A stretch of DNA of 39,639 bases from assembly GCA_024276705.1 (NCBI GenBank), contig JAJRWS010000388.1, positions 1-39,639 of the forward strand. Reading direction: 5' to 3'. Shown piece by piece: positions 2,321-39,545 of this stretch. The notes under the pieces are model-generated. The model made no database searches and was not told the DNA's origin. It was given only the letters and a program-made list of their open reading frames with translations. This DNA comes from Planctomycetota bacterium. GTDB lineage: Bacteria > Planctomycetota > Planctomycetia > Pirellulales > Lacipirellulaceae. Position 1 is the stretch's first letter. Every line of letters begins with the position of its first letter. The translations under genes and the position numbers were made by a program.

Positions 2321-3222
2321 ACATTCGCGCGCTGACTCGCAACGACGCCGCGGCTCTCCTGCAAGTGTGGAACCGGGCGGCCATTTACGATCCGATGACT
2401 GCCTCGTTGCTCAAGGAAAAAATCTGGGGCGATCTGAATTGTTACGAGGACCTGGCGTGGGTCATCGAGGTGAATAAACAGTTGCTGGCCTTTGTCGTAG
2501 GCGTGTTTCGCCCCGTGATTCCGACCGCATTGGGCTACATCAAGCTGCTTGCCGTGGAACCCGATCGGCAGGGACAACATCTTGGCAGCCAGTTGCTGAA
2601 GCAGGTGGAAGATCGGCTTGGACAACAGGGAGTGAAAGAAATCCGCATCGCCGAGAGTGCCCCCAACTATCTTGTACCGGGCGTGGACCAACGCAATACG
2701 CGAGCACTCTCGTTCTTCAAACAGCACGGCTACGAACCGTTCGCGGAAGCCCACAACCTGTCGGTCGATCTGCAAGCGGAAGATTTTGGCACTCAGCAAG
2801 CGGAACAGAATCTGCGGAACCGGGGAATCGAAGTTCATCGTGCGACGCTGCCCGATCGGCCCGCGCTGGCCACCTTCCTGGAAACGCATTGGCCTTCGTG
2901 GCGAGACGAAGTGGAGTGTGCGCATACGGGCAACCCGATCCGCTTGCATCTTGCCTGGATGGACAAGGCGGTCATCGGCTTTGCCGCCTACGAGGGCAAC
3001 AACAGGGGGACCGGCTGGTTCGGTCCCATGGGCACCGATCCAGCGTATCGAGGCAGGGGGATTGGCGCGGTACTCCTGCGACGCTGCCTGCGCGACCTCC
3101 GGCATTCGGGACTCGCCCAAGCCGTCATCCCTTGGGCCGCCCACATTGGTTTTTACCAGCAACATGCAGGTGCGCGACGGAGCCGGACATTTCAGCGTTT
3201 TCGAAAACGGATTTACCCGTAA
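2317..3222 (+). CDS. Tandem GNAT-family N-acetyltransferase
   Basis: A 301-aa protein with two GNAT folds. The first (about 1-145) has the acetyl-CoA loop 'LLAVEPDRQGQHLGSQLL'. The second (about 165-300) has 'DPAYRGRGIGAVLLRRC', an R-G-R-G-I-G pyrophosphate-binding loop. Both loops look intact, so both halves may bind acetyl-CoA; the acceptor is unknown. The start is TTG at 2317, overlapping the permease stop by 4 nt, which indicates translational coupling. The 3' end overlaps the convergent SpoIID-like gene by 10 nt. The gene could acetylate an imported amino sugar or peptide, but this rests only on the neighbouring permease. Confidence 0.8.
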   Translation: MNIRALTRNDAAALLQVWNRAAIYDPMTASLLKEKIWGDLNCYEDLAWVIEVNKQLLAFVVGVFRPVIPTALGYIKLLAVEPDRQGQHLGSQLLKQVEDRLGQQGVKEIRIAESAPNYLVPGVDQRNTRALSFFKQHGYEPFAEAHNLSVDLQAEDFGTQQAEQNLRNRGIEVHRATLPDRPALATFLETHWPSWRDEVECAHTGNPIRLHLAWMDKAVIGFAAYEGNNRGTGWFGPMGTDPAYRGRGIGAVLLRRCLRDLRHSGLAQAVIPWAAHIGFYQQHAGARRSRTFQRFRKRIYP

Positions 3223-4631
3223 CATCGCACGACTTCGGTCCCAGGGTAGTAGTGAGTAAGAATCTCACGGTAGCCGATTCCCTGGCAGGCCATCACAGCC
3301 GCGCCGATCTGGCAAAGACCCACCCCATGCCCCCAGCCGGCGCCGGTCAAGAGAAAAGCATCCGGCCGTTCCGTTGGCCCCTCGGAGTCGATGACAAAAG
3401 CCGAACTGTACAAGTGGGTCGGAGAGAGCGCACGGCGGATTTCCAGTTCCTTGCCGACCACCAGACTGTTCGTTTCGCCTACCAGACGCAGCCTCTTCAG
3501 TCGCCCGGAGGGTCCACGTTCGATTGGTTCCAACGCCACCAGTCGGCCCAGGTCGATACCCAGTTTCTCGGCCACCAACTGGCCGGCTTGTGCCGCATCG
3601 AGCCGTACTTGCCAGCGAAAAAAATCAGCTGTCGCCTGGTCGTAATCGTTAAGCACCCGTCTCAGGATCGACGCATCGTGGCAGTTGCAATAGGCGGCCG
3701 GCGGGTCCTGAAGAAACGCCCGCAGCGTGTTTTCTTCGGTTAGCGCAGGCAGGTTAGGGTCATGACCTGGAGCAGGTTCCGAGCCGGGCCTGTCCGGCAA
3801 GGCGACCAGATAAGGAATTTCCTCATCGCCCCAAGCGGTCTGATACTGTTCGGTGACGCCACCACAACACTTACTGAAGCGGGCATCGCAAGCCTTGCCC
3901 GCAAACAGCAGGACTTGCCCCCGTGTCTCGGCAATGGCGTCCGTAACCTGGGGGGAACCGGTGCGGCCAATTCCCTGGTAGCGCTGGCAATGATCGTCCG
4001 CGCAGACGTCGTAGTCGGTATGTGCCTCGCGTTCGGTCCAGCGGATGCGAATCGCAAAAGAGGGCAGGTCTCTTTTTTGCCCCAAATCAACTTTTGGTAC
4101 CGGTTTGGTGCCTTGCAAAAAAGAGACCTGCCCCCTTTTGCGATCTAGCTGGGCAAGCAGCCAACTGCGCGAGATCACCGCATGCGTACGAATCGCTTCG
4201 ACCGGCGATTCGGCATTCATTTCCGAGCAGATCACCGACGTGATGTAAGTTTCCAACGCCACTTGATTGATGACCGTAAGATGACTTTCGTCGCGGACCA
4301 GCAACCGCAAACCGCCCCGAAACGCCTCGGTTTCGGTTTGCTGCCAATGAAAATCGATGCCGATGGTCGCTGCCAATACAAACCGGCAGTTGGCGGGGTC
4401 TTCTGGCTCCAGTTCCAGTGTCTCGAACTCTCCACGCAGTGCCCCCTCGCAAGATAAACGACCGTCCCTGCAGATGACGCGAATCTCACCTGGGCCAACA
4501 CGGTGGCCATCGGCAAATCGGTAAGAACCTTCCAAGCGGACCACCACCGACTCGGTCCGATCGATAATTCCCACATCGATGATCGGCTCTCGGGTGGGAG
4601 GCGATTTTTTGGCCGCTTCGTTGTTGGTCAT
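3213..4631 (-). CDS. SpoIID/LytB-domain protein without signal peptide
   Basis: A 472-aa SpoIID-domain protein; family members are lytic transglycosylases that cut denuded peptidoglycan glycan strands. Visible motifs are 'ICSEMNAESPVEAIRTHAVI', carrying the Glu expected to be catalytic, 'KCCGGVTEQ' (the usual 'SGGxTE' region but Cys-rich) and 'GWGHGVGLCQIGA' near the C-terminus. No signal peptide or membrane segment is seen at the N-terminus, unlike exported SpoIID, so a cytoplasmic role is possible. A palindromic element (4052-4143) is inserted in frame and encodes about 31 residues between 'LLAQLD' and 'RIRWTE'. The start overlaps the upstream DUF4922 stop by 4 nt. Confidence 0.85.
   Translation of the reverse strand: MTNNEAAKKSPPTREPIIDVGIIDRTESVVVRLEGSYRFADGHRVGPGEIRVICRDGRLSCEGALRGEFETLELEPEDPANCRFVLAATIGIDFHWQQTETEAFRGGLRLLVRDESHLTVINQVALETYITSVICSEMNAESPVEAIRTHAVISRSWLLAQLDRKRGQVSFLQGTKPVPKVDLGQKRDLPSFAIRIRWTEREAHTDYDVCADDHCQRYQGIGRTGSPQVTDAIAETRGQVLLFAGKACDARFSKCCGGVTEQYQTAWGDEEIPYLVALPDRPGSEPAPGHDPNLPALTEENTLRAFLQDPPAAYCNCHDASILRRVLNDYDQATADFFRWQVRLDAAQAGQLVAEKLGIDLGRLVALEPIERGPSGRLKRLRLVGETNSLVVGKELEIRRALSPTHLYSSAFVIDSEGPTERPDAFLLTGAGWGHGVGLCQIGAAVMACQGIGYREILTHYYPGTEVVRCYG
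4052..4143. repeat. Palindromic REP-like element inserted in frame in the SpoIID gene
   Basis: Two 29-nt inverted arms (4052-4080 and 4115-4143) match with a single mismatch around a 34-nt loop (4081-4114). The arm core is GCAGGTCTCTTTTTTGC. The reading frame of the host gene stays open and gains about 31 codons. The design (29-nt arms, one mismatch, short loop) matches the element at 29223-29318. Confidence 0.9.
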
Positions 4632-5989: not shown

Positions 5990-6024
5990 GGCTGGATTCT
6001 AGCATAACAAAAATAAAAGTCAGT

Positions 6025-6119
6025 AGTTCCAAGAATGGCCGATGAAGCCGACCCGGAAAACGTGCTAGCGATTAATAACGTCGGTTCCCGGGCGGCTTAT
6101 CGCCCCGCCCCACGTAGGG
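6025..6119 (+). repeat. ~95-bp hairpin element, copy 1
   Basis: Similar by eye at roughly three quarters of positions to the reverse complement of 23842-23936. Arms GATGAAGCCGACCCG (6041-6055) and CGGGCGGCTTATC (6089-6101) are complementary with a bulge and are conserved in both copies, while the loop differs. It lies about 170 bp upstream of the DUF1611 gene, in the same orientation. The rest of the 5990-6289 gap shows nothing else recognisable. Confidence 0.7.
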
Positions 6120-8427: not shown

Positions 8428-8828
8428 GGATCGGGCAATTAATAACTGTCGTTTTTGGACGTAAAATCACTTCTCTTGAGAGATTCAATAAATTTACTGA
8501 TTGTACGGGCAAGAAATGTGTTCGGCATATGACACAAACAAAACATTAAATGATTAGATAATGCTAAAAATGGCGGGAGTGAGAAGTAAGGGTTCAGGGT
8601 TCAGGAAAGAAGGTTTCAGGTGTCGGAACCGGTCAATTGTCAATAGTTATTTGTCAATTATCTTTTGGCAATTGGTTGCAAGGCCTTATGATTCGTCGAG
8701 GATCTTGTTTCTTCTTTTCGCAATGACAAATGACTACTGTTAAATGACTAATGATAAATTCTTTGTCAGGTTTCAGGGTTCAGGGAAAAGTGTTGTGGAA
8801 AGTAGATTGCGGGAAAGTGGATAATAGC
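8428..8828. repeat. AT-rich intergenic region with inverted mosaic heptamer array
   Basis: Positions 8589-8645 are nearly the exact reverse complement of 212-282, in the same unit order (TGAACCC, TTCTTTCC, ACACCTGAAACC, TTGACAA). Positions 8721-8760 hold a different 7-bp family, AATGACA/AATGACT. Positions 8766-8787 hold more TTCAGGG units. The stretch 8430-8580 is distinctly AT-rich and probably carries the promoter of the next gene; I see no gene. Confidence 0.75.
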
Positions 8829-11764: not shown

Positions 11765-13531
11765 ATGCCTCCTCATCCCTATGGACTGCTGAGCCTGGCC
11801 CCACCGGTGGTGGCGATCGGTCTTGCCATCGTGACTCGCCGGGCCGCCCTTTCACTGGTGGTGGGAATCTACTTCGGCGCCCTGGTAACGGGTGGCGGCA
11901 ATCCGTTGGCGGCCCTCTACGACACGTTGGAAGTGCAACTCTGGCCCACGCTCACCGACCCGGGAAAACTGCGGGTTTTTGTATTCACGTTGTTGATGGG
12001 GGCAATGATCGGGGTGGTTTGCCGCAGTGGCGGCATGCGTGGACTGATCCAGTTGATTGCTCCTTTGGCGAACTCGCGCCGTAGCGGTCAGATGACGACC
12101 TGGTTTTTGGGGCTGCTGATATTTTTCGACGATTACGCCAATACGATCCTGCTGGGCAACACGCTCCGCCCGCTATGCGAGCGGCTGCGGATCTCGCGTG
12201 AAAAGCTGGCCTACCTGGTCGATTCGACCGCCGCGCCGGTAGCCGGCCTGGCCCTGGTCTCTACCTGGGTGGCCGTGGAAATCGATTACTTGCGTGACGG
12301 GCTGGAGATGCTGCCCGCCCGCCATTCCTTAAAGGCCTTCGACCTGTTCATCGCCAGCATTCCGTACCGGTTTTACGTATTGATGGCCCTGCTGTTTGTC
12401 CCCCTGGTGGCATTGCTGGGCCGTGATTTTGGCCCCATGCTGACCGCCGAACGACGCGGGCTCCGCGATCCGCACCCTTATGGCGAGGATGCGGAAGCAC
12501 AACTCGAAGAATCGGCGATGGTCGAAACGGATCAATCCGCCCGCTGGTACAATGGCGTATTGCCTATCGCTGTTACGCTAGGGGTTGTGATGGTACTGCT
12601 GATCGTGACCGGCCGTCAGGCTCTGGCCGCGGCCGGCATGGAGCCAGACGCGCCGCTCAGAGATGTCCTGGGTTCCGCCGCGTCGAGTTTATCGCTCTTT
12701 TACGGCTCGCTGGCCGGTCTGGGGGTTGCCGCATTGCTCGCCCGCCTGCAAGGACTTTTGACGGCCCGGCAAATCACCGAGGCGGCAGGGCAGGGAGCGC
12801 GGGTCGTTCTGCCGGCCATCGTTATACTGTGGTGCGCTTCATCCCTGTCACGAATGACCAGCAACAAATCGGTCGCTGGCGAGCCGACACGCACACCGTA
12901 TCAGTTTAAGGATCATCGTCTCTATACGGGCGACTACCTGGCGGAGCTGATTGTCCCGAATGGCGGGAGTCAAGCCAGCGCCAACTGGGAGGACCAGCAA
13001 GCGACCAGCAGGAATCAGCCAGGCGGACCCGCCATCGTGGCCACGATGCCACGCACGATCACCGAGGGGTCGGCGGGGTCGGCCAGAATCCCGATCGAAC
13101 TGTTGCCAACGGTCGTGTTTCTGCTGGCCGCGGTGGTTTCATTTTGCACCGGCACCAGCTATGGGACCATGGGGATCTTGTTGCCAATGGTTCTGTCGCT
13201 CACCTACACGATGCTCGCCTCGGGCGGACAAGCCGTCACTCCTGGCGATCCCATCCTGCTCGCCTGCGTCGGCGGCGTGCTAGCCGGGGCGATATTCGGT
13301 GATCATTGTTCACCCATCTCCGACACGACCATTCTTTCGTCCCAGGCATGTGCCTGCAATCACATGGCCCATGTGGTTACGCAAATGCCCTACGCGCTGA
13401 CCGTAGCTACAGTCGCCGTCTTGTTTGGCACCCTGCCCCTGGGCTGGGGTGTTTCCGTGTGGATCTTGTTGCCAGTACAAGCGGTGGTGCTGGTGCTATT
13501 CCTGCGGGTGGTAGGAAGCAAAGTGCAATAG
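11765..13531 (+). CDS. NhaC-family Na+/H+ antiporter
   Basis: A 588-aa inner-membrane protein with about ten to twelve hydrophobic segments. Family hallmarks are 'DDYANTILLGNTLRP' (about 121-135), 'DSTAAPVAGLALVSTW' and, near the C-terminus, 'FCTGTSYGTMGILLPMV' and 'GAIFGDHCSPISDTTILSS'. It would exchange Na+ for protons, or an organic acid in related subfamilies. A hydrophilic, non-conserved stretch of about 70 residues (translated from roughly 12855-13090) separates the core from the last helices and is longer than usual. A palindromic REP begins 1 bp after the stop. Confidence 0.85.
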   Translation: MPPHPYGLLSLAPPVVAIGLAIVTRRAALSLVVGIYFGALVTGGGNPLAALYDTLEVQLWPTLTDPGKLRVFVFTLLMGAMIGVVCRSGGMRGLIQLIAPLANSRRSGQMTTWFLGLLIFFDDYANTILLGNTLRPLCERLRISREKLAYLVDSTAAPVAGLALVSTWVAVEIDYLRDGLEMLPARHSLKAFDLFIASIPYRFYVLMALLFVPLVALLGRDFGPMLTAERRGLRDPHPYGEDAEAQLEESAMVETDQSARWYNGVLPIAVTLGVVMVLLIVTGRQALAAAGMEPDAPLRDVLGSAASSLSLFYGSLAGLGVAALLARLQGLLTARQITEAAGQGARVVLPAIVILWCASSLSRMTSNKSVAGEPTRTPYQFKDHRLYTGDYLAELIVPNGGSQASANWEDQQATSRNQPGGPAIVATMPRTITEGSAGSARIPIELLPTVVFLLAAVVSFCTGTSYGTMGILLPMVLSLTYTMLASGGQAVTPGDPILLACVGGVLAGAIFGDHCSPISDTTILSSQACACNHMAHVVTQMPYALTVATVAVLFGTLPLGWGVSVWILLPVQAVVLVLFLRVVGSKVQ

Positions 13532-13532
13532 G

Positions 13533-13555
13533 AAAAAGGTGTCCGACACCTTTTT
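13533..13555. repeat. REP palindrome, copy 1
   Basis: A 23-nt near-palindrome with core AGGTGTCCGACACCT. It is the exact reverse complement of 13717-13739. It lies directly after the antiporter stop and truncates the RAYT fragment. Confidence 0.9.
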
Positions 13556-13649
13556 GGCTATCTGTGTGAAAAATAGTTTCTTTCTTATTAGCCCGATTCA
13601 GCATGTGGTAGATACCACCCGCTTCATCCGCACGTTTAGTTCGTCCCAC
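13556..13649 (-). pseudogene. N-terminal remnant of a RAYT (REP-associated tyrosine transposase)
   Basis: On the minus strand, a GTG at 13649 opens about 31 codons that read as the start of a Y1/RAYT transposase: 'GRTKRADEAGGIYHMLNRAN' then 'KKETIFHTD'. 'YHxLNRxN...IF' is the family's first conserved block. The catalytic HUH and Tyr motifs are absent because the frame runs into REP copy 1 at 13555. With REPs on both sides this is a decayed REP-RAYT-REP unit, or a minimal element carrying a transposase stub. It cannot be an active transposase. Confidence 0.8.
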
Positions 13650-13706
13650 ATCGACACCCCCTATGATGAACGCTGGACAATAATCACGATGTGTTACCCA
13701 TATGCC

Positions 13707-15428
13707 CTATTCTTTCAAAAAGGTGTCGGACACCTTTTTTCTTATGCCGATCCCCACTTTGCCGGAGACACGCGGGTCGTGGATTCCGATGAGCTTGCCC
13801 CCCTCACGGCCGATCGCCTGGGTCACCCCAAACTGGTCGACTTGCTCGATACGATGTCCCCGGTGCTGCAAACCTTGATTCCATTCTGCCGGAAACGCTT
13901 GCTCGACGAGTACCTGATCGGGTAGCCACTGGTGATGGTAGCGGGGTCGGGCAACGGCCTCGGCCAGCGTCTGGCCGTAGTCGATGGTGCGTAGCAGTGT
14001 GAGTACTACTTGGGTGATGATGGTCGGTCCCCCGGCCGCTCCGACGGTGAGGAGCGGCTGTCCATCCTGGAGTACTAGGGTGGGACTCATGCTGGACAAA
14101 GGCCGCTTGCCGGGTGCAATCGCGTTGTTCTCCGCACCGACCAGGCCAAAAGCATTCGGTGTGCCTGGCTGACTCGAAAAGTCATCCATCTCGTTATTCA
14201 GCACAATCCCTGTCCCGGGGACAATCACGCAGGAGCCAAACGAAGTGTTCACCGTGGCTGTGATGGCCACCCAGTTGCCATCGCTGTCGGCGGCGGCAAT
14301 GTGCGTGGTGTGGCGGTTGCCGAACAGATCGCTGGTGCCTTGAGGCGGATTGCCGTGGGCCTCGACTTTCGCCGCCCGACACGGATCGATCGTTTGGGCC
14401 AGCCGGGCAGCGTACGATTTATCAATCAGGCCTCGAGGCACATCGACATAATCCGCATCACCCAGCCAGTGGGCCCGGTCGGCGAAGGCCCGCTTCAGCG
14501 CTTCGACGATCAGGTGGGAAGCGGCCACCGGATCTTTGGCCTGGAGCGACCGCAGGTCAAAATTTTCCAGTATGTTGAGAATCTGGGCCACATGCACGCC
14601 GCCGGAACTGGGAGGAGGGAAACCGACAATCGTGTAACCGCGGTAAACTGTTACGATCGGTTTTCGCTGGCGGGCCATGTAGTGGGCAAAGTCCGCCGCA
14701 GTCACGATGCCCTCATGACGGGCCATCCAGGAACCGACCGCCTGGGCGTATGGGCCCCGATAGAACCAATCGGTCCCATGGCGGGCGACCTGACGATAGG
14801 AGCGGGCCAGGTCCGGCTGCTTGAGAATTTCGCCTGCCCGGTAAGGCATGCCATCCGGCTTGAGCAGTACGGCCCGAGTCGCTGCAAACCGGGCAAGGCT
14901 GCTGGCGGTCTTGGCCAGGTTGGCCGCATAACGGCCATCGATGGCGAAACCCTCTTCGGCGATTCGGGCGGCTGGCAACAACAAATCCTCGAGCTTGCGT
15001 TGCCCGTACTTTTCCAGCACCAGCGCATAGGCGGCCAGGGCACCCGGCACGCCGACCGCCAATGGACCGATGGTACTCAATTCAGGCACAACCTGGCCGT
15101 CGCGGAGGTACATGTCGCGAGTGGCGGCAGCCGGGGCCATTTCGCGACCTTCGATCGCCACCAATCGGCCATCCGCCAGGCGGAGCAAGATAAAACAGCC
15201 TCCGCCCAGGCCAGAATTGTGGTTGTCAACCACGCCCAGGGTCAGCGCGGCCGCAACTGCCGCGTCAATCGCATTGCCACCACTCACAAAGGCTGCGGTG
15301 GCCGCATCGGTCGCCAACGGCTGTACGGTCGCCACGATACAGCGGCTCTGGGCCCAGACGACCGGCCTTGATTCACAACAGAGAGTCAGAACCAATACGG
15401 ATACAATCCAGGCCAGGGAGATACGCAT
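13707..15428 (-). CDS. ggt: Gamma-glutamyltransferase
   Basis: A 573-aa Ntn-hydrolase, exported, with a signal peptide at about 1-27 ending near 'VWAQS'. It transfers or hydrolyses gamma-glutamyl groups, for example of glutathione, in the periplasm. The autoprocessing nucleophile is T374 in 'RHTTHIAAAD'. Other family residues are R95 ('EGREMAP'), 'NTSFGS' at 394-399, 'NNEMDDF' at 411-417, the oxyanion 'PLSSMSP' at 443-449 and 'GAAGGP' at 463-468. The heavy and light chains are both complete. The last ten or so residues come from a REP palindrome and are not part of the family. The gene follows uxaC after 1 bp, indicating co-transcription. Confidence 0.92.
   Translation of the reverse strand: MRISLAWIVSVLVLTLCCESRPVVWAQSRCIVATVQPLATDAATAAFVSGGNAIDAAVAAALTLGVVDNHNSGLGGGCFILLRLADGRLVAIEGREMAPAAATRDMYLRDGQVVPELSTIGPLAVGVPGALAAYALVLEKYGQRKLEDLLLPAARIAEEGFAIDGRYAANLAKTASSLARFAATRAVLLKPDGMPYRAGEILKQPDLARSYRQVARHGTDWFYRGPYAQAVGSWMARHEGIVTAADFAHYMARQRKPIVTVYRGYTIVGFPPPSSGGVHVAQILNILENFDLRSLQAKDPVAASHLIVEALKRAFADRAHWLGDADYVDVPRGLIDKSYAARLAQTIDPCRAAKVEAHGNPPQGTSDLFGNRHTTHIAAADSDGNWVAITATVNTSFGSCVIVPGTGIVLNNEMDDFSSQPGTPNAFGLVGAENNAIAPGKRPLSSMSPTLVLQDGQPLLTVGAAGGPTIITQVVLTLLRTIDYGQTLAEAVARPRYHHQWLPDQVLVEQAFPAEWNQGLQHRGHRIEQVDQFGVTQAIGREGGKLIGIHDPRVSGKVGIGIRKKVSDTFLKE
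13717..13739. repeat. REP palindrome, copy 2, inside the ggt 3' end
   Basis: Exact inverse of copy 1 (13533-13555), with core AGGTGTCGGACACCT. It encodes most of the C-terminal 'KKVSDTFLKE' of the gamma-glutamyltransferase, so the palindrome overlaps coding sequence. Confidence 0.9.
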
Positions 15429-22783: not shown

Positions 22784-22830
22784 ATTCAGGGTTCAGGGGT
22801 CGGGTGTCAGGGTTCAGGTGCCGGGAAAGG
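22784..22830. repeat. Heptamer array between gnd and SDR gene
   Basis: TTCAGGG / GTCAGGG / TCGGGTG 7-bp units, the reverse-strand form of the CCTGAAC/CCTGACA families. No other feature is seen between 22696 and 22938. Confidence 0.7.
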
Positions 22831-22938
22831 TAGCTGGTAAAGACATGCTGCAAATCCAGGTAACTGTTTGGTGACAGCATTGGTGTCTCACATGCTGAAC
22901 ACTCAACTAGAGAACCGAAAGTTATTATTGAGTCCACC

Positions 22939-23841: not shown

Positions 23842-23936
23842 GCCCGACGCTGGACAGGACGATAAGCCGCCCGAGAACCAACGCCATTACAGCTTACACG
23901 TCGTACGGGTCGGCTTCATCGGCCATTCTTGGGACT
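23842..23936 (-). repeat. ~95-bp hairpin element, copy 2
   Basis: Inverse-orientation counterpart of 6025-6119. The arms are 23906-23920 and 23861-23873. It supplies the last codons and stop of the LarA-type gene and ends about 55 bp upstream of the SDR gene, in the same orientation as that gene. Confidence 0.7.
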
Positions 23937-25217
23937 TCTGGAATTCTCAAATCGTCCCCGGTAGGCCCACAAGCCGAGTGCCGGGTTGGAGATGAAGAAG
24001 ATCTCTTCTCCATCGGGCATGGTATTCATCCCATCCTTGAGCTGCTGGGGATCGTACCGCCGCAACATCGGTTCCAGCTCTCCGTATTGAAAATTCACGC
24101 CCTCGATCTCTTCGCGTGTCAACTGGCCCGGACAGTAGGTGATACGGAAACGGCCTTCGGACGAACCGTGAATCAAATGGGCCGCCGCGCTGAGGTTTTG
24201 TCGCAACTCCTCGTCCCGCTCGACGGCGGCCAGGATCTCGGGCGTTTTCAAGTATCCGTATTTGCGGATGAGCCGGTCGATCTGGGCATCTTCACCAAAT
24301 TCTTGAACTCCCGGAGCGAGTACGATCAGTTCGCCTCCGTCGGCAATCGCCATGCGCGTACGATAGACGCTCTTGTTTCCCAGCCAGGTGCTCTTGAATT
24401 CCGCCGGATCGAGATAAACAACCACTTTGGTCAGCGGCGCATCGAGCATTTCGAAGTTGACCTGCAACGACAGTTCCGCCGCCCGTTCGAAGCATTCCCG
24501 ATCGTCGCCCACAAACAGGCCTTTCACTTCCAACTGGCCCTCGGCATTGGCCGCAACCACGGTGTGAACGTAGACGATGGGCAGGTCGCTGGCAAAATGC
24601 GCGCTGGCATAGTCGAGCACGCTACGTACGGGTGTATCAGCCCTGCCCATGATGCGTTCCATGCCATGGACGGCGCCCAGGAAATGGCTTCGGTGAATCC
24701 CCTTCGGCCCTCCGGTTCCCACGAAGATGTTTTTGTTGTAATTGGCCATGCCAATCACTTCGTGCGGGACGACCTGGCCAAGCGACAAGATCAGGTCATG
24801 CCCGCCCTGGGCAATCAACGTGGCCACCTGGGCGGGCCAATCGTAGTCGATCTTTCCTTCCGACACTTCCCGTAAAAAATCGGCCGGAACCGTTCCCAGC
24901 GTGTGAATCCCGTGGCGCCAGTCGTGCTCTCGAAACAACCCTTTGGGCACATCCCCGAACATGCCGCCAATTTGTTCGCCGGTCATTGGCGTATGCGTAC
25001 CCAGGGCCGGCAGGATGTCGACCAGCGCGTCGCCGTAATGCTGCCAGGCGTAACGAGTCAGATCTCCCGCGAAGGAATGGAGCCGGGTGGCATCGGGCGG
25101 CACGGCCAACACACGTTTGCGCGGACCAAGCTTTTCCAATGCCGTCGTAAGCCCTTCCTGGAGCGCGGTGGCATCCAGGCAGTCCGTCTCCGAGCCGCGG
25201 CTGAAATAAAGCATCAA
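23916..25217 (-). CDS. LarA-type (nickel-pincer nucleotide) racemase/epimerase
   Basis: A 433-aa protein of the lactate racemase (DUF2088/LarA) superfamily, which uses a nickel-pincer nucleotide to shift hydride at the alpha carbon of 2-hydroxy acids. The spacing of key residues fits LarA: D42 and R45 ('PPDATRLHS'), H75 ('GTHTPMTG'), H152 ('VPHEV'), K162 and H178, with H152-K162 10 apart and H152-H178 26 apart, as I recall for L. plantarum LarA H174, K184, H200. LarB/C/E cofactor-synthesis genes are not in the window. The context of an aldonate oxidoreductase, sugar kinase and gnd favours an aldonate epimerase over lactate racemase. Confidence 0.8.
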   Translation of the reverse strand: MMLYFSRGSETDCLDATALQEGLTTALEKLGPRKRVLAVPPDATRLHSFAGDLTRYAWQHYGDALVDILPALGTHTPMTGEQIGGMFGDVPKGLFREHDWRHGIHTLGTVPADFLREVSEGKIDYDWPAQVATLIAQGGHDLILSLGQVVPHEVIGMANYNKNIFVGTGGPKGIHRSHFLGAVHGMERIMGRADTPVRSVLDYASAHFASDLPIVYVHTVVAANAEGQLEVKGLFVGDDRECFERAAELSLQVNFEMLDAPLTKVVVYLDPAEFKSTWLGNKSVYRTRMAIADGGELIVLAPGVQEFGEDAQIDRLIRKYGYLKTPEILAAVERDEELRQNLSAAAHLIHGSSEGRFRITYCPGQLTREEIEGVNFQYGELEPMLRRYDPQQLKDGMNTMPDGEEIFFISNPALGLWAYRGRFENSRSPKNGR

Positions 25218-26726: not shown

Positions 26727-28022
26727 TTACTGGCCGAGACAGTAGAGGCACTGGTTCGATCGGATGAGCAACCGGTTGCCGGCGATTGCCGGGCTGCCGT
26801 TGAAAATGCTCTCGTCGAGTGGACCGTTGTGGGCAAGTAACTCGAACTCGGGCCGCGCGGCCAGGACGTAGGTGCCTTTCTCGCGGCTGACGATGTAAAT
26901 TTTCCCATCCGCAATCACCGGCGAGGCGTAGATACGGCCGGGACGAGGTTTAATTCGCTTTTTATAGACCACTTCGCCAGTCTTGGCGTCAGCGCAAAAT
27001 GCCGTTCCCTGCTGTTCGTGGACCCAGTAGAGATAACCCTGGTGATAAATGGGCGACGATACGTTCGAGCCTTTATTGATGAGCCATTTACGACGCGTTT
27101 CCGTCACATCGCCACGCCCGCCCGCTGCAACCGCCAAGGCCGAACCTTTCCTGGCCCCGATGGCATAAACGATCCCATCGTGCGCAATCGGACTGGGACA
27201 GACATAGTCCTTGAAGCTGTCGCAAGTCCATAGTTCTTCACCGGTAGCCGGATCGAAGGCACGCAAACGGTTCTTGATACTTACGACCAATTCCGCCGAA
27301 GCCCCCGGCACCTCGACCAGCACGGGCGTATTCCAGGAGTCGTCGATCCCCTCGGCCCGCCATACCTGCTGGCCGGTTCTTTTGTCCAGTCCCACCAGCG
27401 CGCCACTCTCAACGCTCGCATTGAGAATCACCAGATCCCCGGCAAGAACGGGCGACGTGCCACTGCCCCAGTTGTGCGTCTTTGTGCCGACACTCGTCTG
27501 CCAAAGTGGTTTACCAGCGAGTGAAACCGCGCCGGCTCCCGAGCTGCCAAAGAAGTAAAAGAGCGACTCGCCGTCGGTAGCCAACGTACTCGAGGCGTAG
27601 CCATGCAGTGCCTGGAAGCCCTGATACTCGTGGATCGGTTCCGTGGGCTTGAATGTATGCTGCCAAACCACCTGGCCATTGGCTAGGTCGACACAGAGAA
27701 GGTGCCGTTTGAGCGCTGTCTCGTCTCCCGGTTCATCCTCGTTCAGGCCGTAACCACTGTAGCAGGTCAGGTAAGCGCGATCTCCCAGCACAATCGGACT
27801 GGAGGCACCATAGCCGGGCATGGGAGTTTTCCATACAATATTATCAGTTGGACTCCACTCGGTCGGCACACCGCGGGCATCGTGGGTGACCCCGCTACCA
27901 TCGGGTCCACGGAATTGGGGCCAGTCCGCGGCGAGACCATCTTCGGCAAGCCAACTGAGTGCCCAACCGAGTGAAAGCAGAGCAAGCAGCACGAACAGAC
28001 CACGGTGGAGTGAATGTTGCAT
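26727..28022 (-). CDS. Exported PQQ-like beta-propeller protein
   Basis: A 431-aa protein with a signal peptide (about 1-31, 'LFVLLALLSLGWALSWLA'). The mature part begins 'ADWPQFRGPDGSG', the blade signature common in planctomycete secreted propellers. Repeated blades such as 'VCVDLANGQVVWQ', 'VGLDKRTGQQVWR', 'RAFDPATGEELWT' and 'FCADAKTGEVVYKK' follow. No PQQ-dehydrogenase active-site residues are apparent, so this is probably a binding or assembly scaffold rather than an enzyme. It is divergent from the next PQQ-like gene across 183 bp, where both promoters should lie. Confidence 0.85.
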   Translation of the reverse strand: MQHSLHRGLFVLLALLSLGWALSWLAEDGLAADWPQFRGPDGSGVTHDARGVPTEWSPTDNIVWKTPMPGYGASSPIVLGDRAYLTCYSGYGLNEDEPGDETALKRHLLCVDLANGQVVWQHTFKPTEPIHEYQGFQALHGYASSTLATDGESLFYFFGSSGAGAVSLAGKPLWQTSVGTKTHNWGSGTSPVLAGDLVILNASVESGALVGLDKRTGQQVWRAEGIDDSWNTPVLVEVPGASAELVVSIKNRLRAFDPATGEELWTCDSFKDYVCPSPIAHDGIVYAIGARKGSALAVAAGGRGDVTETRRKWLINKGSNVSSPIYHQGYLYWVHEQQGTAFCADAKTGEVVYKKRIKPRPGRIYASPVIADGKIYIVSREKGTYVLAARPEFELLAHNGPLDESIFNGSPAIAGNRLLIRSNQCLYCLGQ

Positions 28023-28205: not shown

Positions 28206-29711
28206 ATGTCTGGTCCCATGAAAATTCGATGGTCCAATCTGCTACTCCCCGGATTGCTGGCGGTACTCGGAGCCTGGCTGATCGTGGCGTGGCTGGGTAC
28301 AGGGTCGTTGGGTAATTTACAAATTCGCGTCCCAGGCATGGACCTTCCCGCTGGCGGCAGTGGTTCAAGCCAGGAGGCCCTGCCACCGCCCGTGGCCGGC
28401 AAGACGATCCGGGGCGACGGCCAACCGGCGGACCTGGCCGGCAGTTGGCCCTGGTTCCGCGGCCCCAGGCACGATGGCATCTGCCACGACATGTTCCGAT
28501 TGGCCCGATCGTGGCCCGAGTCAGGACCGGCCCTCCTCTGGACCGTTGAAATGGGAGAGGGCTACGCCAGCCCGGCGATCCACGACGGCTGCGCCTATGT
28601 TCTGGACTACGACGAGCAAGCCAAAGCCGACACGATGCGCTGCTTGTCACTTGCCGATGGGCGGGAAGTCTGGCGCAACAGCTACCCGATTCTCGTCACT
28701 CGCAATCATGGCATGTCCCGCACGGTACCAGCCATCATCGATGACTGCGTCATTTCGCTCGGCCCACGTTGCCACGTGGCCTGCTGGGATACCAAGACCG
28801 GCGACTGCCGCTGGTTGGTCGACCTGGCCGGGCAGTACGGCGCCACGGTACCGCGGTGGTACGCGGGCCAGTGTCCGCTGATCGACCGCCAGCAACTGGT
28901 TCTGGCTCCATGCGGCGAGTCGATGCTGATCGCCTTGGATCCCAAGACCGGCAGCCTGCTCTGGAAGAGCCCCAACCCCCGTGGCTGGCGCATGACCCAT
29001 GCCTCGATCGTGCCGATGGAATTTCAAGGACGCCGCACCTATGTCTACTGCGGCAGTGGCGGCGTGGCCGGTATCGACGCGGAGGATGGAACATTGCTCT
29101 GGGACAGCACTGCATGGCCAGAGCAATTTGCCACCAGCCCTTCCCCCGTGCCGCTACCCGATGGCCGCATTTTCCTGTCGAGCGGCTACAACAGCAAAGT
29201 GGGCAGCCTCATGCTACAGTTGCGGAAAAAGGTGTCAGGAACCTTTTCTCCCCAAACAGTGCGGAAAAAGGAGAATGAATCCTTTTCTGAGAAAAGGTTC
29301 CTGGCACCTTTTTCCGCGGAAGTCGCTTTTCGTCTGACCCCCAAACAGTTCAATTCGGAACAGCAAACGCCCATCTACTTCGACGGACACCTGTTTGCCG
29401 TTCGTAAGCGGGGTGGCGGCCAACTGGTCTGCATGGATCTGGCAGGGGACGAGCTCTGGAACAGCGGCTCGGACCGTTTTGGCCACGGTCCCTACATGAT
29501 CGCGGACGGCTTGATCCTGGCCATGGACAATCGGGGAAAACTCACGATGGCCGAAGCTACTTCCGCCCATTACCGGCGTCTCGGCCAGTGGACCGTTTTT
29601 CAGGATGGTCACGACGCCTGGGGCCCCATGGCGTTGGCCGACGGCCGGTTGATTGTCCGGGATATGACCCGAATGGCATGTCTCGATATCGGCGCGAAAT
29701 CGGATAAATGA
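28206..29711 (+). CDS. PQQ-like beta-propeller protein carrying an in-frame palindrome
   Basis: A 501-aa membrane-anchored or exported protein; 'LLLPGLLAVLGAWLIVAWLG' near residues 12-31 is the signal or anchor. The propeller starts near 'SWPWFRGPRHDGI', with blades including 'RCLSLADGREVWR', 'ACWDTKTGDCRWL' and 'IALDPKTGSLLWK'. A 96-bp palindromic element (29223-29318) adds exactly 32 codons between 'GSLMLQL' and 'EVAFRLTP' without breaking the frame. An alternative ATG at 28218 ('MKIRWSN') is equally plausible. The stop overlaps the start of the esterase gene (ATGA). Confidence 0.85.
   Translation: MSGPMKIRWSNLLLPGLLAVLGAWLIVAWLGTGSLGNLQIRVPGMDLPAGGSGSSQEALPPPVAGKTIRGDGQPADLAGSWPWFRGPRHDGICHDMFRLARSWPESGPALLWTVEMGEGYASPAIHDGCAYVLDYDEQAKADTMRCLSLADGREVWRNSYPILVTRNHGMSRTVPAIIDDCVISLGPRCHVACWDTKTGDCRWLVDLAGQYGATVPRWYAGQCPLIDRQQLVLAPCGESMLIALDPKTGSLLWKSPNPRGWRMTHASIVPMEFQGRRTYVYCGSGGVAGIDAEDGTLLWDSTAWPEQFATSPSPVPLPDGRIFLSSGYNSKVGSLMLQLRKKVSGTFSPQTVRKKENESFSEKRFLAPFSAEVAFRLTPKQFNSEQQTPIYFDGHLFAVRKRGGGQLVCMDLAGDELWNSGSDRFGHGPYMIADGLILAMDNRGKLTMAEATSAHYRRLGQWTVFQDGHDAWGPMALADGRLIVRDMTRMACLDIGAKSDK
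29223..29318. repeat. Palindromic REP-like element inserted in frame in a PQQ-like gene
   Basis: 29-nt arms (29223-29251 and 29290-29318) match with one mismatch, around a 38-nt loop that itself holds a smaller palindrome (AAAAGGA...TCCTTTT). The arm core GGTGTCAGGAACC shares AAAAAGGTGTC with the REPs at 13533 and 13717. Total length is 96 bp, or 32 codons. Confidence 0.92.
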
Positions 29712-34970: not shown

Positions 34971-35038
34971 ATCCCGATCCCGACACCTGACACCTGACAC
35001 CTGACACCTTCTTTCCTGAACCCTGAACCCTGAACACT
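34971..35038. repeat. Mosaic heptamer array before the PQQ-like membrane gene
   Basis: CCTGACA x3-4, then TTCTTTCC, then CCTGAAC x2-3. This is the same order as at 212-295 and inverted at 8589-8645. Confidence 0.8.
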
Positions 35039-35087
35039 CTGTTTGAATGTGGAAGTTACCAACCGGCCGCGACTGAACCACGAAACC

Positions 35088-36908
35088 ATGCCTCTCCGTA
35101 CCGACCATTATCCGACCGTTTTGCTGACCGCGATCGTCGCCGGTCTGTTTTCGATCGTGGTGGCTGCGTTGCTGGTGGTCGACTACACCCGGCGGTCGAA
35201 TGACCTGGCGTTGGAGCTGCCCGAGTATCAGACGCTGAAGCAGCAGTTGTCGCAAGAGCCGGATAATACATCCTTGCGCGAACAGATTCGCAAGATCGAT
35301 TTTCAACTGCGCGAGGAGTACTTCCGCCAGCGCCGTTTTACTTCGCATGGGGCGTACCTGCTTGCAGGTGGAGTTGTATTCTGGCTGATCACCCTCCGAC
35401 TGGCCTTCACATTGCGACGCAAGCTGCCCAAACCGACTGGTCAGCCATCTCGCGAGGACCCCGATGCGCGGGTTGCCGACTATGGCATCCCGGCCGTGGC
35501 AATGCTTGTCCTGCTGCTGGCCGGTACCACCTTCGCCCTCCGCACTCTCTCTCCCGACGCGCTCCCCGACCAACGCGAGGAACTGGCTACCTTGTCGAAG
35601 TTGGGCTTGTCGAAGTTGGGCTTGTCGAAGTTGGGCTTGTCGAAGTTGGGCAAAACGCAGAATGAATCCACACCCTCCCCGAAGGGGCCGGCCGACACGA
35701 AGTTGCCGACCCCAGCAGAGATCGCGAGAAACTGGCCTCGTTTCCGCGGCCCCCGGGGCAACGGTGTTTCCGCCTACACGAATAGTCCCACAACGTGGGA
35801 CGCCTCGACGGGTGCGGGCATCCTTTGGCAAACGCCCGTGCCGTTGCCGGGAAACAGCTCGCCAACCGTTTGGGGAGACGCCGTTTTTGTGACCGGTGCC
35901 AGCGACCAACGTCACGAGGTTTACTGCTTCGATGCGAAATCCGGAGCTATTCGTTGGCAAAAGGAAATCCGCCGTACCCCGCAAGGAGCCAAAACACCCG
36001 AAGTGAGCGAAGAGACTGGTTACGCCGCATCGACCTGCGCGACCGATGGCCTGCGCGTCTATACCATGTTCGCCAATGGAGATGTGGCCGCGCTCGACTT
36101 CAACGGCCAACTCGTCTGGACCGTTGGTCTCGGCACACCGAAAAACATCTACGGCCACGCCGCATCCCTGGCCCTGGCACGCGACTTATTAATCGTGCAG
36201 TTCGACCAGGGCTCCGCCAAGGAAGGCAAATCGCAACTACTCGCATTGCGGACCGCGACGGGCCAGATCGCCTGGCGGGCGGCTCGGGATGTACCCAACT
36301 CCTGGTCGTCGCCGATTGTTGTCGAAGGCGAGGGCCAGGCACGAATCATCACCGCCGCCAGCCCGTGGGTCATCGCTTATCGGGCGACCGATGGGGCCGA
36401 ACTGTGGCGTTCAAAGTCCCTGCGCGCAGATGTCGGCCCATCGCCCGTCCATGCCGATGGGGTCGTCTACGTGGTCAGCGAGTTTCCTTGCCTGTCGGCC
36501 ATACGCGACGACGGAAAGGGAGACATCACCAAGACGCACGTGGCATGGACCGCGGACGCTGGTCTGGCCGATACCTGCGGGCCTCTGGTCACCGACCAGT
36601 TTGTACTCTTGCTGGCTTCGTTTGGCACGCTCACCTGCTATGATAAAAAGGCTGGGGGTGAACCGTTGTGGGAGATCGATTTTGACGATAGTTTCAGCTC
36701 GTCCCCCGGACTGGTGGGAAATCGGGTCTATCTCTTTGGCGAAGAAGGCAAGTCCTGGGTAGTGGAGATCGATCGGGACGGTGGTAAAATAATATCGGAA
36801 TCCAATCTTGGCCAGCCCTGCGTTACCAGCCCGGCCTTTCAGGATGGGCGGATTTATATTCGCGGAAAAGAAACCCTGTTTTGCCTGGGAACGAAAGAGG
36901 AGAACTAA
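35088..36908 (+). CDS. Membrane PQQ-like beta-propeller protein with 15-bp tandem repeat
   Basis: A 606-aa protein with three helices (about 9-31, 86-107, 132-154) and a charged, helical stretch between the first two. A linker follows, then a C-terminal propeller starting 'NWPRFRGPRGNGV', with blades 'YCFDAKSGAIRWQ', 'AALDFNGQLVWT' and 'ALRTATGQIAWR'. The linker holds four perfect copies of a 15-bp unit encoding S-K-L-G-L. The ATG at 35088 is chosen over an upstream TTG (35043) that lies beside repeat sequence. It lies within the redox cluster between the NapH-like and NuoEF-like genes, so a link to electron transfer is possible but unproven. Confidence 0.83.
   Translation: MPLRTDHYPTVLLTAIVAGLFSIVVAALLVVDYTRRSNDLALELPEYQTLKQQLSQEPDNTSLREQIRKIDFQLREEYFRQRRFTSHGAYLLAGGVVFWLITLRLAFTLRRKLPKPTGQPSREDPDARVADYGIPAVAMLVLLLAGTTFALRTLSPDALPDQREELATLSKLGLSKLGLSKLGLSKLGKTQNESTPSPKGPADTKLPTPAEIARNWPRFRGPRGNGVSAYTNSPTTWDASTGAGILWQTPVPLPGNSSPTVWGDAVFVTGASDQRHEVYCFDAKSGAIRWQKEIRRTPQGAKTPEVSEETGYAASTCATDGLRVYTMFANGDVAALDFNGQLVWTVGLGTPKNIYGHAASLALARDLLIVQFDQGSAKEGKSQLLALRTATGQIAWRAARDVPNSWSSPIVVEGEGQARIITAASPWVIAYRATDGAELWRSKSLRADVGPSPVHADGVVYVVSEFPCLSAIRDDGKGDITKTHVAWTADAGLADTCGPLVTDQFVLLLASFGTLTCYDKKAGGEPLWEIDFDDSFSSSPGLVGNRVYLFGEEGKSWVVEIDRDGGKIISESNLGQPCVTSPAFQDGRIYIRGKETLFCLGTKEEN
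35591..35650. repeat. Perfect 15-bp tandem repeat x4 within coding sequence
   Basis: CTTGTCGAAGTTGGG repeated four times with no mismatch, encoding SKLGL repeats in the linker. Identity between copies suggests recent expansion and likely length variation. Confidence 0.95.
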
Positions 36909-36938
36909 ATGCGGAATTCGGACTGCGGATTGCGGAAT
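36902..36938. repeat. Stop-codon-spanning repeat, copy 1
   Basis: GAACTAAATGCGGAATTCGG... covers the stop codon (TAA at 36906) and continues as 7-bp GCGGATT units. It matches 39433-39469 with one difference. Confidence 0.85.
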
Positions 36939-36960: not shown

Positions 36961-37075
36961 AACCTGTCAGCCGACTTCTTTTTTCCTGAACCCTGAACCC
37001 TTTTTTCCCCGACACCTGACACCCGACACCTGACACCTTTTTTACTGCCCCCTGCCTACTGCCCCCTGCCCACTC
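36961..37075. repeat. Compound heptamer array upstream of the NuoE-NuoF fusion gene
   Basis: CCTGAAC, CCTGACA / CCCGACA and CTGCCCC-type 7-bp units in succession, separated by T-rich spacers. It fills nearly the whole gap before the ATG at 37085. Confidence 0.8.
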
Positions 37076-37084
37076 TTTTACTCC

Positions 37085-39439
37085 ATGTCCGACCTCGACC
37101 TTACTTTTGTCGATCAAACCGTCGCCCGGGTGGGGGATGCGCCGGATGGGGTGATTCCGATTCTGCAGTCGCTCCAGTCCCATTATCGCTACCTGCCGCA
37201 AGAAGCGCTCCAGCGCGTTTGCGAGCTGACCGACATCACGCCGGCAACGATTACCGGCGTGTCGACCTTCTACACGCACTTCCGCCACCGGCCGGTCGGA
37301 AAACATGTGATCCGTGTCTGCACTGGTACGGCCTGCCACGTGAAGGGGGCCGACCTGATCCGTGATTCCCTGGCCCATCAACTTCGGCTTGCACCTGGCG
37401 AAGAGACCGATGCGACGGGCAAGTTCACCCTGCAGGAAGTTGCCTGCGTCGGTTGCTGTACGCTCGCCCCGCTGTTTCAAGTGGACGAGTCGACTTACGG
37501 TCGCTTGACGCCGCAAACCGTCCCGAACGCCCTCGACGATTTCCAGCGTCAATCGAACGGCAAGACGCGGCGAAAACGCCGTCCGGTTCCCGTGCCGAGC
37601 AGCCCAGCGGCGGAGATTCGAGTTGGGCTTGGCTCCTGTTGCGTTGCCCAGGGCAGCAATCATGTCCACGACGCCATCGAAAACGTACTGGCCGAATCGG
37701 GCGCGCTCGCGACGGTCAAACAGGTAGGCTGCGTCGGCATGTGCCATCAGACGCCACTGGTCGAACTGGTCACACCGGCTGGCGACACGTCGCTCTACTG
37801 CAACGTCCAATCGGACGATGTCCCGGGAATTATTCTGAGCAATTTCAAGCCACGAGGTTTCACCCGGCGCGTTCGGTATGCCGCTTCCCGGCTCCTCGAC
37901 AAACTCTACTCGGATGAGCAAAACGGCTCGGCCTTGCAGCCGGCCAGTGATGCGCGAGAATCGCCCGTCTGTTCGTTTCTCGGTCCGCAGAAACATCTGG
38001 CCACCGAATACTGTGGTCAGATCGATCCGCTCGACCTGGACGAATACATGCGGCACGATGGTTTCGTCGCTCTCCGGCGTTGTCTGGCGGAATTGAGTCC
38101 GGATCAGATCGTAGCTCAAATACGTACCAGCGGCTTGCGCGGACGGGGTGGGGCAGGGTTCCCCACCCATATCAAATGGGCGACCGTGCGCAACACGACG
38201 GAAACAACCCGGTACGTCATCTGCAATGGCGACGAAGGAGATCCGGGTGCGTTCATGGACCGGATGATCCTGGAATCGTACCCCTACCGGGTCATTGAGG
38301 GGATGGCGATCGCGGCGAAAGCGGTTGGGGCAAGGGAAGGAATTTTCTACATCCGCAACGAGTATCCACTCGCCGTACGACGGATTCGGGCAGCGATTCG
38401 CCGCTGCGAAGAGAAAAACCTCCTGGGCGATTCCCATCAGGGAAGCGACTTCGGCCTCCGGCTCTCAGTTCAGGAAGGTGCCGGAGCATTTATCTGTGGT
38501 GAGGAAACGGCTCTGATCCACTCGATCGAAGGCCACCGAGGCACGCCTCGCTTGCGGCCGCCGTACCCGGCCGAGAGTGGCCTGCGGCAGAAACCGACCC
38601 TGATCAATAATGTCGAGACGCTCGCCCTGGTCCCATGGATTTTCCGCCATGGCGCCGAAGCGTTTGCCGCCCTCGGAACCGAAAAGAGCAAAGGGACCAA
38701 GGTCTTCGCCCTGGCCGGCAAGATCGCCCGAGGAGGCCTGATCGAAGTGCCCATGGGGGTTACGCTGCGCGAAATCGTCGAGCAGATTGGCGGCGTCATC
38801 GCAGCGGGACGCCAGTTCAAAGCAGTCCAGGTGGGAGGCCCGTCGGGTGGCTGCATCCCCGCCGCGCTGGCCGATACGCCCGTCGATTACGAGGCGTTAC
38901 GGGAAGTGGGAGCCATCATGGGCAGCGGTGGGCTGGTCGTGCTGGACGACACCGATTGCATGGTCGACATCGCCCGTTACTTCCTCCGTTTCACCCAAGA
39001 CCAGTCGTGTGGAAAATGTACCTTCTGCCGCATTGGCACGAAGCGGATGCTTGAAATCATGAATCGCATCTGCACGGGCCATGGTCGCCGGGGCGACCTG
39101 CAGACGCTGGAGCTGCTGGCCGGGCAGGTCGCGGACGGCAGTATCTGCGGACTCGGCAAGACCGCGCCGAACCCGGTCCTCTCGACCCTCCGCTATTTTC
39201 GCGAAGAATACGAGGCGCATCTGAAAGGCCATTGTCCGGCCGGAAAGTGCAAAGAGTTGATCGCCTACCGGGTTGCGGGCGATTGCGTGGGTTGCACGCT
39301 TTGCAGCCAGTATTGCCCTGTCGATGCGATCCCGATGACACCCTACCGGCGGCACTGGATCGACATGGAAAAATGCACTCGCTGCGATACGTGCCGGGAA
39401 GTCTGTCCGACCGGAGCAATCGAGGTGGGAACGAACTAA
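37085..39439 (+). CDS. Fused NuoE-NuoF (HydC-HydB-like) NADH/Fe-S flavoprotein
   Basis: A 784-aa soluble Fe-S flavoprotein. Residues 1-155 are a NuoE/HydC domain ([2Fe-2S] at C79, C84, C121, C125). Residues 177-250 are a second thioredoxin-like [2Fe-2S] domain ('GLGSCC', 'GCVGMC'). Residues 315-630 are the NuoF core with FMN/NADH sites 'RGRGGAGFP' (352-360), 'CNGDEGDPG' (380-388) and 'GAGAFICGEETAL' (465-477). [4Fe-4S] ligands are C642, C645, C648, C688. A C-terminal 2[4Fe-4S] ferredoxin has C734-C744 and C764-C774. This order equals HydC plus HydB of electron-bifurcating hydrogenases or NAD-linked formate dehydrogenases, fused. Complex I NuoF lacks the C-terminal ferredoxin. Confidence 0.9.
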   Translation: MSDLDLTFVDQTVARVGDAPDGVIPILQSLQSHYRYLPQEALQRVCELTDITPATITGVSTFYTHFRHRPVGKHVIRVCTGTACHVKGADLIRDSLAHQLRLAPGEETDATGKFTLQEVACVGCCTLAPLFQVDESTYGRLTPQTVPNALDDFQRQSNGKTRRKRRPVPVPSSPAAEIRVGLGSCCVAQGSNHVHDAIENVLAESGALATVKQVGCVGMCHQTPLVELVTPAGDTSLYCNVQSDDVPGIILSNFKPRGFTRRVRYAASRLLDKLYSDEQNGSALQPASDARESPVCSFLGPQKHLATEYCGQIDPLDLDEYMRHDGFVALRRCLAELSPDQIVAQIRTSGLRGRGGAGFPTHIKWATVRNTTETTRYVICNGDEGDPGAFMDRMILESYPYRVIEGMAIAAKAVGAREGIFYIRNEYPLAVRRIRAAIRRCEEKNLLGDSHQGSDFGLRLSVQEGAGAFICGEETALIHSIEGHRGTPRLRPPYPAESGLRQKPTLINNVETLALVPWIFRHGAEAFAALGTEKSKGTKVFALAGKIARGGLIEVPMGVTLREIVEQIGGVIAAGRQFKAVQVGGPSGGCIPAALADTPVDYEALREVGAIMGSGGLVVLDDTDCMVDIARYFLRFTQDQSCGKCTFCRIGTKRMLEIMNRICTGHGRRGDLQTLELLAGQVADGSICGLGKTAPNPVLSTLRYFREEYEAHLKGHCPAGKCKELIAYRVAGDCVGCTLCSQYCPVDAIPMTPYRRHWIDMEKCTRCDTCREVCPTGAIEVGTN

Positions 39440-39469
39440 ATGCGGAATTCGGATTGCGGATTGCGGAAT
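39433..39469. repeat. Stop-codon-spanning repeat, copy 2
   Basis: Same sequence as 36902-36938, again covering the TAA of the preceding gene (39437-39439). Confidence 0.85.
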
Positions 39470-39479
39470 GGAATGCATG

Positions 39480-39545
39480 CGACACCGTCACCTCAACACC
39501 CGACACCCTTTTTCCTGCCCACTGCCCACTGCCCACTGCCCACTA
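39480..39545. repeat. Heptamer array (CCCGACA, ACTGCCC x4)
   Basis: ACTGCCC is repeated about four times after CCCGACACC units. It lies between the flavoprotein gene and the next start codon. Confidence 0.8.

Follow-up and report, generated by a model that had tools for sequence, protein, structure and literature searches.

Palindromic elements carried in frame inside protein-coding genes are known already as a kind, since both the Rickettsia palindromic elements (RPEs; Ogata et al. 2000, 2002, in PMC10969869) and intragenic REPs (Di Nocera et al. 2013, PMC3733652) have been described. The RPEs, selfish DNA which unrelated host proteins tolerate as an additional peptide, are the classic in-frame palindromes in proteins. 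Di Nocera et al. (PMC3733652) report REP monomers and dimers in frame within unrelated ORFs, the dimers typically covering 20-30 residues, with uvrA repeatedly among the hosts and REP ends which give stop codons to adjoining ORFs; the same paper describes TIRYT Y1 transposases with GGGGWSAS inverted repeats (TIRtron/TIRYT elements). REPINs (Bertels and Rainey 2011, PMC3116915) consist of two inverted REPs with a short spacer, are dispersed, and occur together with REP-flanked Y1 genes.

The element described here lies at 4051-4144 of contig JAJRWS010000388.1 (Planctomycetota bacterium, GCA_024276705.1), in a stretch of 39,639 nt which was analysed as a whole and is called the window. In the assembly of the host genome (6.36 Mb, 698 contigs, 85% complete), the window corresponds to contig C307. 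In all probability, the sequence is a non-autonomous REPIN-like element of the RAYT/TIRYT repeat class, inserted by a transposase into a SpoIID gene and translated as a disordered loop.

With REPINs (PMC3116915) it shares the inverted REP pair, the REP-flanked Y1 transposase and, in the arm family of its sister at 29222-29317, the dispersal in the genome; it differs in that REPs are mostly extragenic there and coding here, and in that just a single near match to the SpoIID-type arm is present in this genome. Compared with the REPs of PMC3733652, the likeness extends to in-frame intragenic copies, a uvrA host and REPs at stop codons, whereas the intragenic list given there consists of GTAG- or CGTC-tagged REPs and the present elements are untagged; they appear to fit the TIR class (GGGGWSAS) at TIRYT transposases better than the tagged REPs. 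The likeness to RPEs, as described in PMC10969869, is that of a selfish palindrome in frame in unrelated hosts (SpoIID, PQQ, CarA, NadE, XDH, UvrA, ggt), and is functional rather than a claim of sequence homology; the differences are the phylum, the transposase family with matching terminal repeats, and the location of most copies outside supported CDSs. New here are the Planctomycetota cases, the replacement of a linker, and the apparently repeated occupation of the same protein's linker in different phyla. Variable-linker replacement and recurrence in the same linker across phyla are absent from the accessible text of PMC3733652, and neither these nor a Planctomycetota coding-sequence family appeared in the literature searched, a limited open-access set.

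Palindrome and linker in the SpoIID gene

The host gene was recognised by Pfam SpoIID (E = 2e-21, 129 residues aligned to 97 profile positions) and by NCBIfam SpoIID_LytB (E = 4e-51). Its features are as follows.

3213..4631, minus strand: SpoIID/LytB-domain protein of 472 aa, with profile matches and homologues 60-63% identical in two relatives (G014, G008)
4051..4144, minus strand: REPIN-like palindrome, about residues 163-193 (DRKRGQVSFLQGTKPVPKVDLGQKRDLPSFAI), nearly the whole variable linker
4051..4080, plus strand: left arm, REP-like hairpin AAAAGAGGGCAGGTCTCTTTT
4115..4144, minus strand: right arm, REP-like hairpin AAAAGGGGGCAGGTCTCTTTT, one mismatch against the left arm

The palindrome spans 94 bases, and its 30-nt arms are 97% complementary and 34 nt apart. 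Apart from it and a sister in a second gene, the window contains, under the criteria applied, no inverted repeat whose arms reach 20 nt within 160 nt, and none of 30 dinucleotide shuffles contained any; the single-strand folding z-scores of the two range from -9 to -11 against shuffles. Every arm is a hairpin of the form AAAAGG-N9-CCTTTT, to which the SpoIID arms have one or two mismatches, and because each arm is itself a hairpin, the palindrome is a pair of inverted REPs, showing the REPIN trait of two inverted REP hairpins around a short spacer. The GTAG/CGTC tetranucleotide is absent from the hairpin feet, which read ATCGC/GCGAT and GCGG/CCGC. Rfam at gathering thresholds returned no match, and neither did the comparison of the window palindrome with plasmids.

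The linker is located between SRSWLLAQ and the VCADDHCQ block, and varies in length and sequence among homologues. It counts 45 residues here; measured between fixed anchors, the linkers of 55 parsed homologues range over 31-61 residues with a median of 35, which makes a net change of about +10 from the median and of -9 from the nearest relative (G014); the linkers of both G014 and G008 are palindrome-free. Since homologous linkers are comparably long and those of these two relatives contain no palindrome, the element appears to replace the native linker rather than to add to it, and the native loop would have been lost during or after insertion. In an AlphaFold2 model built on a 34-sequence alignment (mean pLDDT 82), residues 169-190 fall below 50, and the loop is predicted to be disordered. 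Closer than about 63% protein identity, no genome with an empty site turned up, and we infer the insertion from homologues and not from an allele pair.

A sequence-only reading of this DNA had described inverted arms with one mismatch inside SpoIID coding sequence and a frame which stays open through them. Both points were borne out, with the arms at 30 nt and the ORF at 3213-4631(-) uninterrupted across the palindrome and intact before and after it. Its claim that the element adds about 31 residues between conserved blocks has to be revised: about 31 residues are encoded, but in place of a native hypervariable linker, and the alignment of homologues reveals no clean insertion.

REPs in coding sequences and the integrity of the host gene

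The sister palindrome is found in a beta-propeller gene further along the window.

28206..29711, plus strand: PQQ/BamB-like beta-propeller protein (PQQ_2 E = 1e-21), host of the sister
29222..29317, plus strand: sister REPIN-like palindrome, encoding RKKVSGTFSPQTVRKKENESFSEKRFLAPF in an open frame

Its arms (29222-29250 and 29289-29317) are 29 nt long, 97% matched and 38 nt apart, with a third, weaker REP hairpin between them at 29260-29288. The PQQ loop exceeds that of most homologues by about 23 residues, but the nearest relative (G014) carries an unrelated extension of comparable size at this place. PQQ/BamB-like beta-propeller proteins number three in the 40-kb window (26727-28022, 28206-29711, 35043-36908), and a 15-nt tandem repeat at 35591-35665, CTTGTCGAAGTTGGG, encodes LSKLG repeats in a PQQ_2 protein.

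A REP census was carried out on the host genome by pattern searches. Because the pattern AAAAGGN9CCTTTT is noisy when one mismatch is allowed (63 matches against 41 in controls), the count was restricted to sites whose REP loops could be recognised. About 40 distinct REP/REPIN sites were obtained, seven of which are in homology-supported CDSs: SpoIID, PQQ, ggt, CarA, NadE, a xanthine-dehydrogenase-like protein (XDH) and UvrA. Three sites adjoin transposase genes; in at least four, the REP overlaps the stop codon of a long ORF; the rest have no supported gene. Left out of the coding count were long ORFs over REPs on four contigs (C11, C237, C297, C286), which have no Pfam match, and a Cas3-HD ORF (C281) with tandem REPs right after the domain, which may be a broken gene. 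Coding sequence usually makes up roughly 85-90% of bacterial genomes. The share of REP sites in coding sequence, about one sixth, is far below this and would fit the purging of most coding insertions.

The supported cases besides SpoIID and PQQ are also placed in variable linkers or tails. The CarA copy lies between the CPSase and GATase domains, in a loop within the length range of relatives; the NadE copy separates the amidase and synthetase domains, and the XDH copy occupies a variable loop, neither loop being longer than in relatives; the UvrA copy is just past the last conserved block. A clean-insertion model was rejected for SpoIID, NadE and XDH, since the loops of homologues are of roughly equal or greater length. 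The ggt copy forms the C-terminus of its protein and has a neighbour at the end of the adjacent ORF.

13712..13740, minus strand: single palindrome AAAAAGGTGTCGGACACCTTTTT, the C-terminal tail KKVSDTFLKE of a gamma-glutamyltranspeptidase (ggt) ORF at 13707-15428
13525..13556, plus strand: matching single palindrome, which overlaps and follows the stop codon of the 11765-13531 ORF

These two single VSDTF-type palindromes (within 13525-13747) are 159 nt apart, and the motif is read as KKVSDTFL in NadE, UvrA and XDH.

Instead of a tolerated passenger, the palindrome could be adaptive, its KR/KK-rich loop or strong mRNA hairpin serving to regulate or diversify the host protein. In favour of this are the high stability of the hairpin and the frame KKVS[D/G]TF, which is used by every one of the five arms of the GGTGTC type in supported CDSs (PQQ, NadE, UvrA, XDH, ggt). 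However, the other two frames can meet a TGA stop (VSDTF type) or encode Cys, so that purging alone can explain the frame bias; moreover, five cases are few, the host proteins are unrelated and the loop is disordered in the predicted structure, and an adaptive role is accordingly considered unlikely.

It is very unlikely that the SpoIID gene is a pseudogene or otherwise non-functional, with the palindrome as intergenic-type debris which keeps the frame by chance. As the arms are 97% identical, differing at one position only, the insertion may be recent, in which case the open frame says little about tolerance over long periods, and most of the strong conservation on the two flanks is older; the frame would be kept by only one third of random net lengths. 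Yet the frame is intact, the residues conserved in 34 homologues, including GAGWGHGVGLCQ, are retained, and dN is lower than dS on both sides of the palindrome in comparison with G014 and G008, with dS near saturation and most of the divergence preceding the insertion.

Arm families, transposases and proposed origin

The arm family of the sister is abundant in the host genome, with about 46 matches against one in the control; the exact arm at up to three mismatches gives 41 matches against none. Arms of this type often form inverted pairs with a total length of 45-90 nt. Among the five Y1 transposase genes of the genome, one (on C27; Pfam Y1_Tnp 54 bits) lies between inverted repeats of the sister type, 37 nt in length and reading AAAAAGGTGCCAGGAGCC..., and another (on C467) has a single sister-type arm close upstream. 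The SpoIID-type arm, in turn, has no other copy in the host genome at up to two mismatches, the next best having three, and with one close copy in an 85%-complete genome its own transposase is not seen here.

It does occur in relatives. A 21-nt SpoIID-type arm at up to one mismatch was detected in 11 of 396 other Pirellulales genomes, and the reversed control gave none. In one of them (G057), the arm, as AAAAGGGGTCAGGTCTCTTTT, is present in pairs 60 nt apart; in another (G114), perfect 23-nt inverted repeats of this type, 696 nt from each other, enclose a 225-aa transposase. SpoIID-type arms are found at the ends of Y1/RAYT-like genes in both genomes, an association parallel to that of the sister type on C27. 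The genes concerned display the RAYT-like signature MPNHWHFVVRP...GHLYQGRFKSFPV...YVERN and are Y1_Tnp by Pfam; they match the NCBIfam RAYT model at 45-72 bits, which is below its 80-bit cut-off.

The arms were also compared with the GGGGWSAS motif. Dispersed repeats AAAAGGGGTCAGGAGCC of the host genome fit it; the two arms of the window, GGGGGCAG in SpoIID and GGTGTCAG in the sister, each depart from it at one position, and the SpoIID-type relatives as well as the copies on C576 and C582 read GGGGTCAG. The likeness to the TIRtron/TIRYT elements of PMC3733652 lies in a Y1 transposase between inverted repeats and in these dispersed repeats, the difference in the one-position deviation of both arms.

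The sequence-only reading had related the palindrome to RAYT/REP-type sequences, regarded it as a mobile element retained as coding sequence, and held that it was not a single accident. The arm type at transposases of other Pirellulales agrees with the first two statements, and the six further REPs in homology-supported CDSs agree with the third. As to the search for further arm copies which it proposed, the sister belongs to an abundant family in this genome, and the SpoIID arm is nearly unique.

A local origin by template switching or repeat expansion in the linker, with the REP likeness as convergence, is highly improbable, because, even if the exact arm is almost unique in the host genome and the linkers of relatives can hold low-complexity palindromes such as the polypurine in the CarA of G002, the 21-nt arm recurs in 11 other Pirellulales genomes, in some as inverted pairs or around Y1 transposases.

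For a REPIN-like element moved by a transposase, the most likely course would be that a cognate enzyme of the RAYT/TIRYT class (IS200-like HUH-Y1) inserted the palindrome via a single-stranded hairpin into a stretch of the SpoIID gene encoding a disordered, length-tolerant loop. As the product is in frame and free of stops, the palindrome would be translated, presumably in an expressed protein, and would now form almost the entire loop. Copies which broke the frame or struck structured parts would have been purged. A mobile palindrome may in this way enter a protein without visible damage, by landing where the loop sequence varies freely.

Palindromes in linkers of other phyla and further repeats of the window

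The longest inverted repeat in the SpoIID linker has a median of 8 nt across 79 parsed homologues, the gene of the window included. Long palindromes of unrelated sequence were present in the same linker in Bacteroides salyersiae (L087; 34 nt) and B. xylanisolvens (L063; 28 nt), with a weaker one in B. congonensis (L089), while codon shuffles of the Bacteroides and window linkers reached a maximum of 12-15 nt. In 550 kb of flanking DNA, 25 inverted repeats of at least 20 nt were counted, and three fell in the SpoIID linker against 0.29 expected by length (Poisson P = 0.003), a value calculated after the fact and one to which B. xylanisolvens and B. congonensis perhaps do not contribute independently.

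Records of B. finegoldii contain repeats which match the palindrome of B. xylanisolvens. In carA of B. finegoldii, one arm (95% over 43 nt) immediately precedes the GATase block and the other is in the preceding linker, the inverted repeat measuring 22 nt and spanning 132 nt (shuffle maximum 14). Furthermore, in CarA of G002, a relative from the same family, the linker contains a 26-nt polypurine palindrome (shuffle maximum 15). Loops such as those of SpoIID and CarA give the impression of places where selfish DNA lands more than once, and the linker of a single protein may be hit again and again in distant phyla. It is conceivable, if somewhat less than probable, that disordered linkers are recurrent sinks for unrelated palindromes across phyla and that selfish DNA is a main source of linker turnover; were this to apply widely, REP-type elements would account for much of the rapid change of interdomain linkers in bacteria.

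Other repeats were observed in the window. Dispersed CCTGAACCCTGAACCCTGAAC/CCGACACCTGACACC units occur in both orientations at several gene boundaries (229-298, 8583-8626, 8765-8794, 22785-22835, 34980-35035, 36978-37064, 39479-39534). Two distant intergenic regions, 6021-6119 and 23843-23940, have two inverted-repeat pairs in common (49 nt at 86% and 47 nt at 79%), together about 100 bases. A 37-nt direct repeat, GAACTAAATGCGGAATTCGG..., is 97% identical between 36902-36938 and 39433-39469, and the CarA linker of the host genome (on C635) holds a GGAATGCGGAATGCGG / GGAATGCGG string similar to it.
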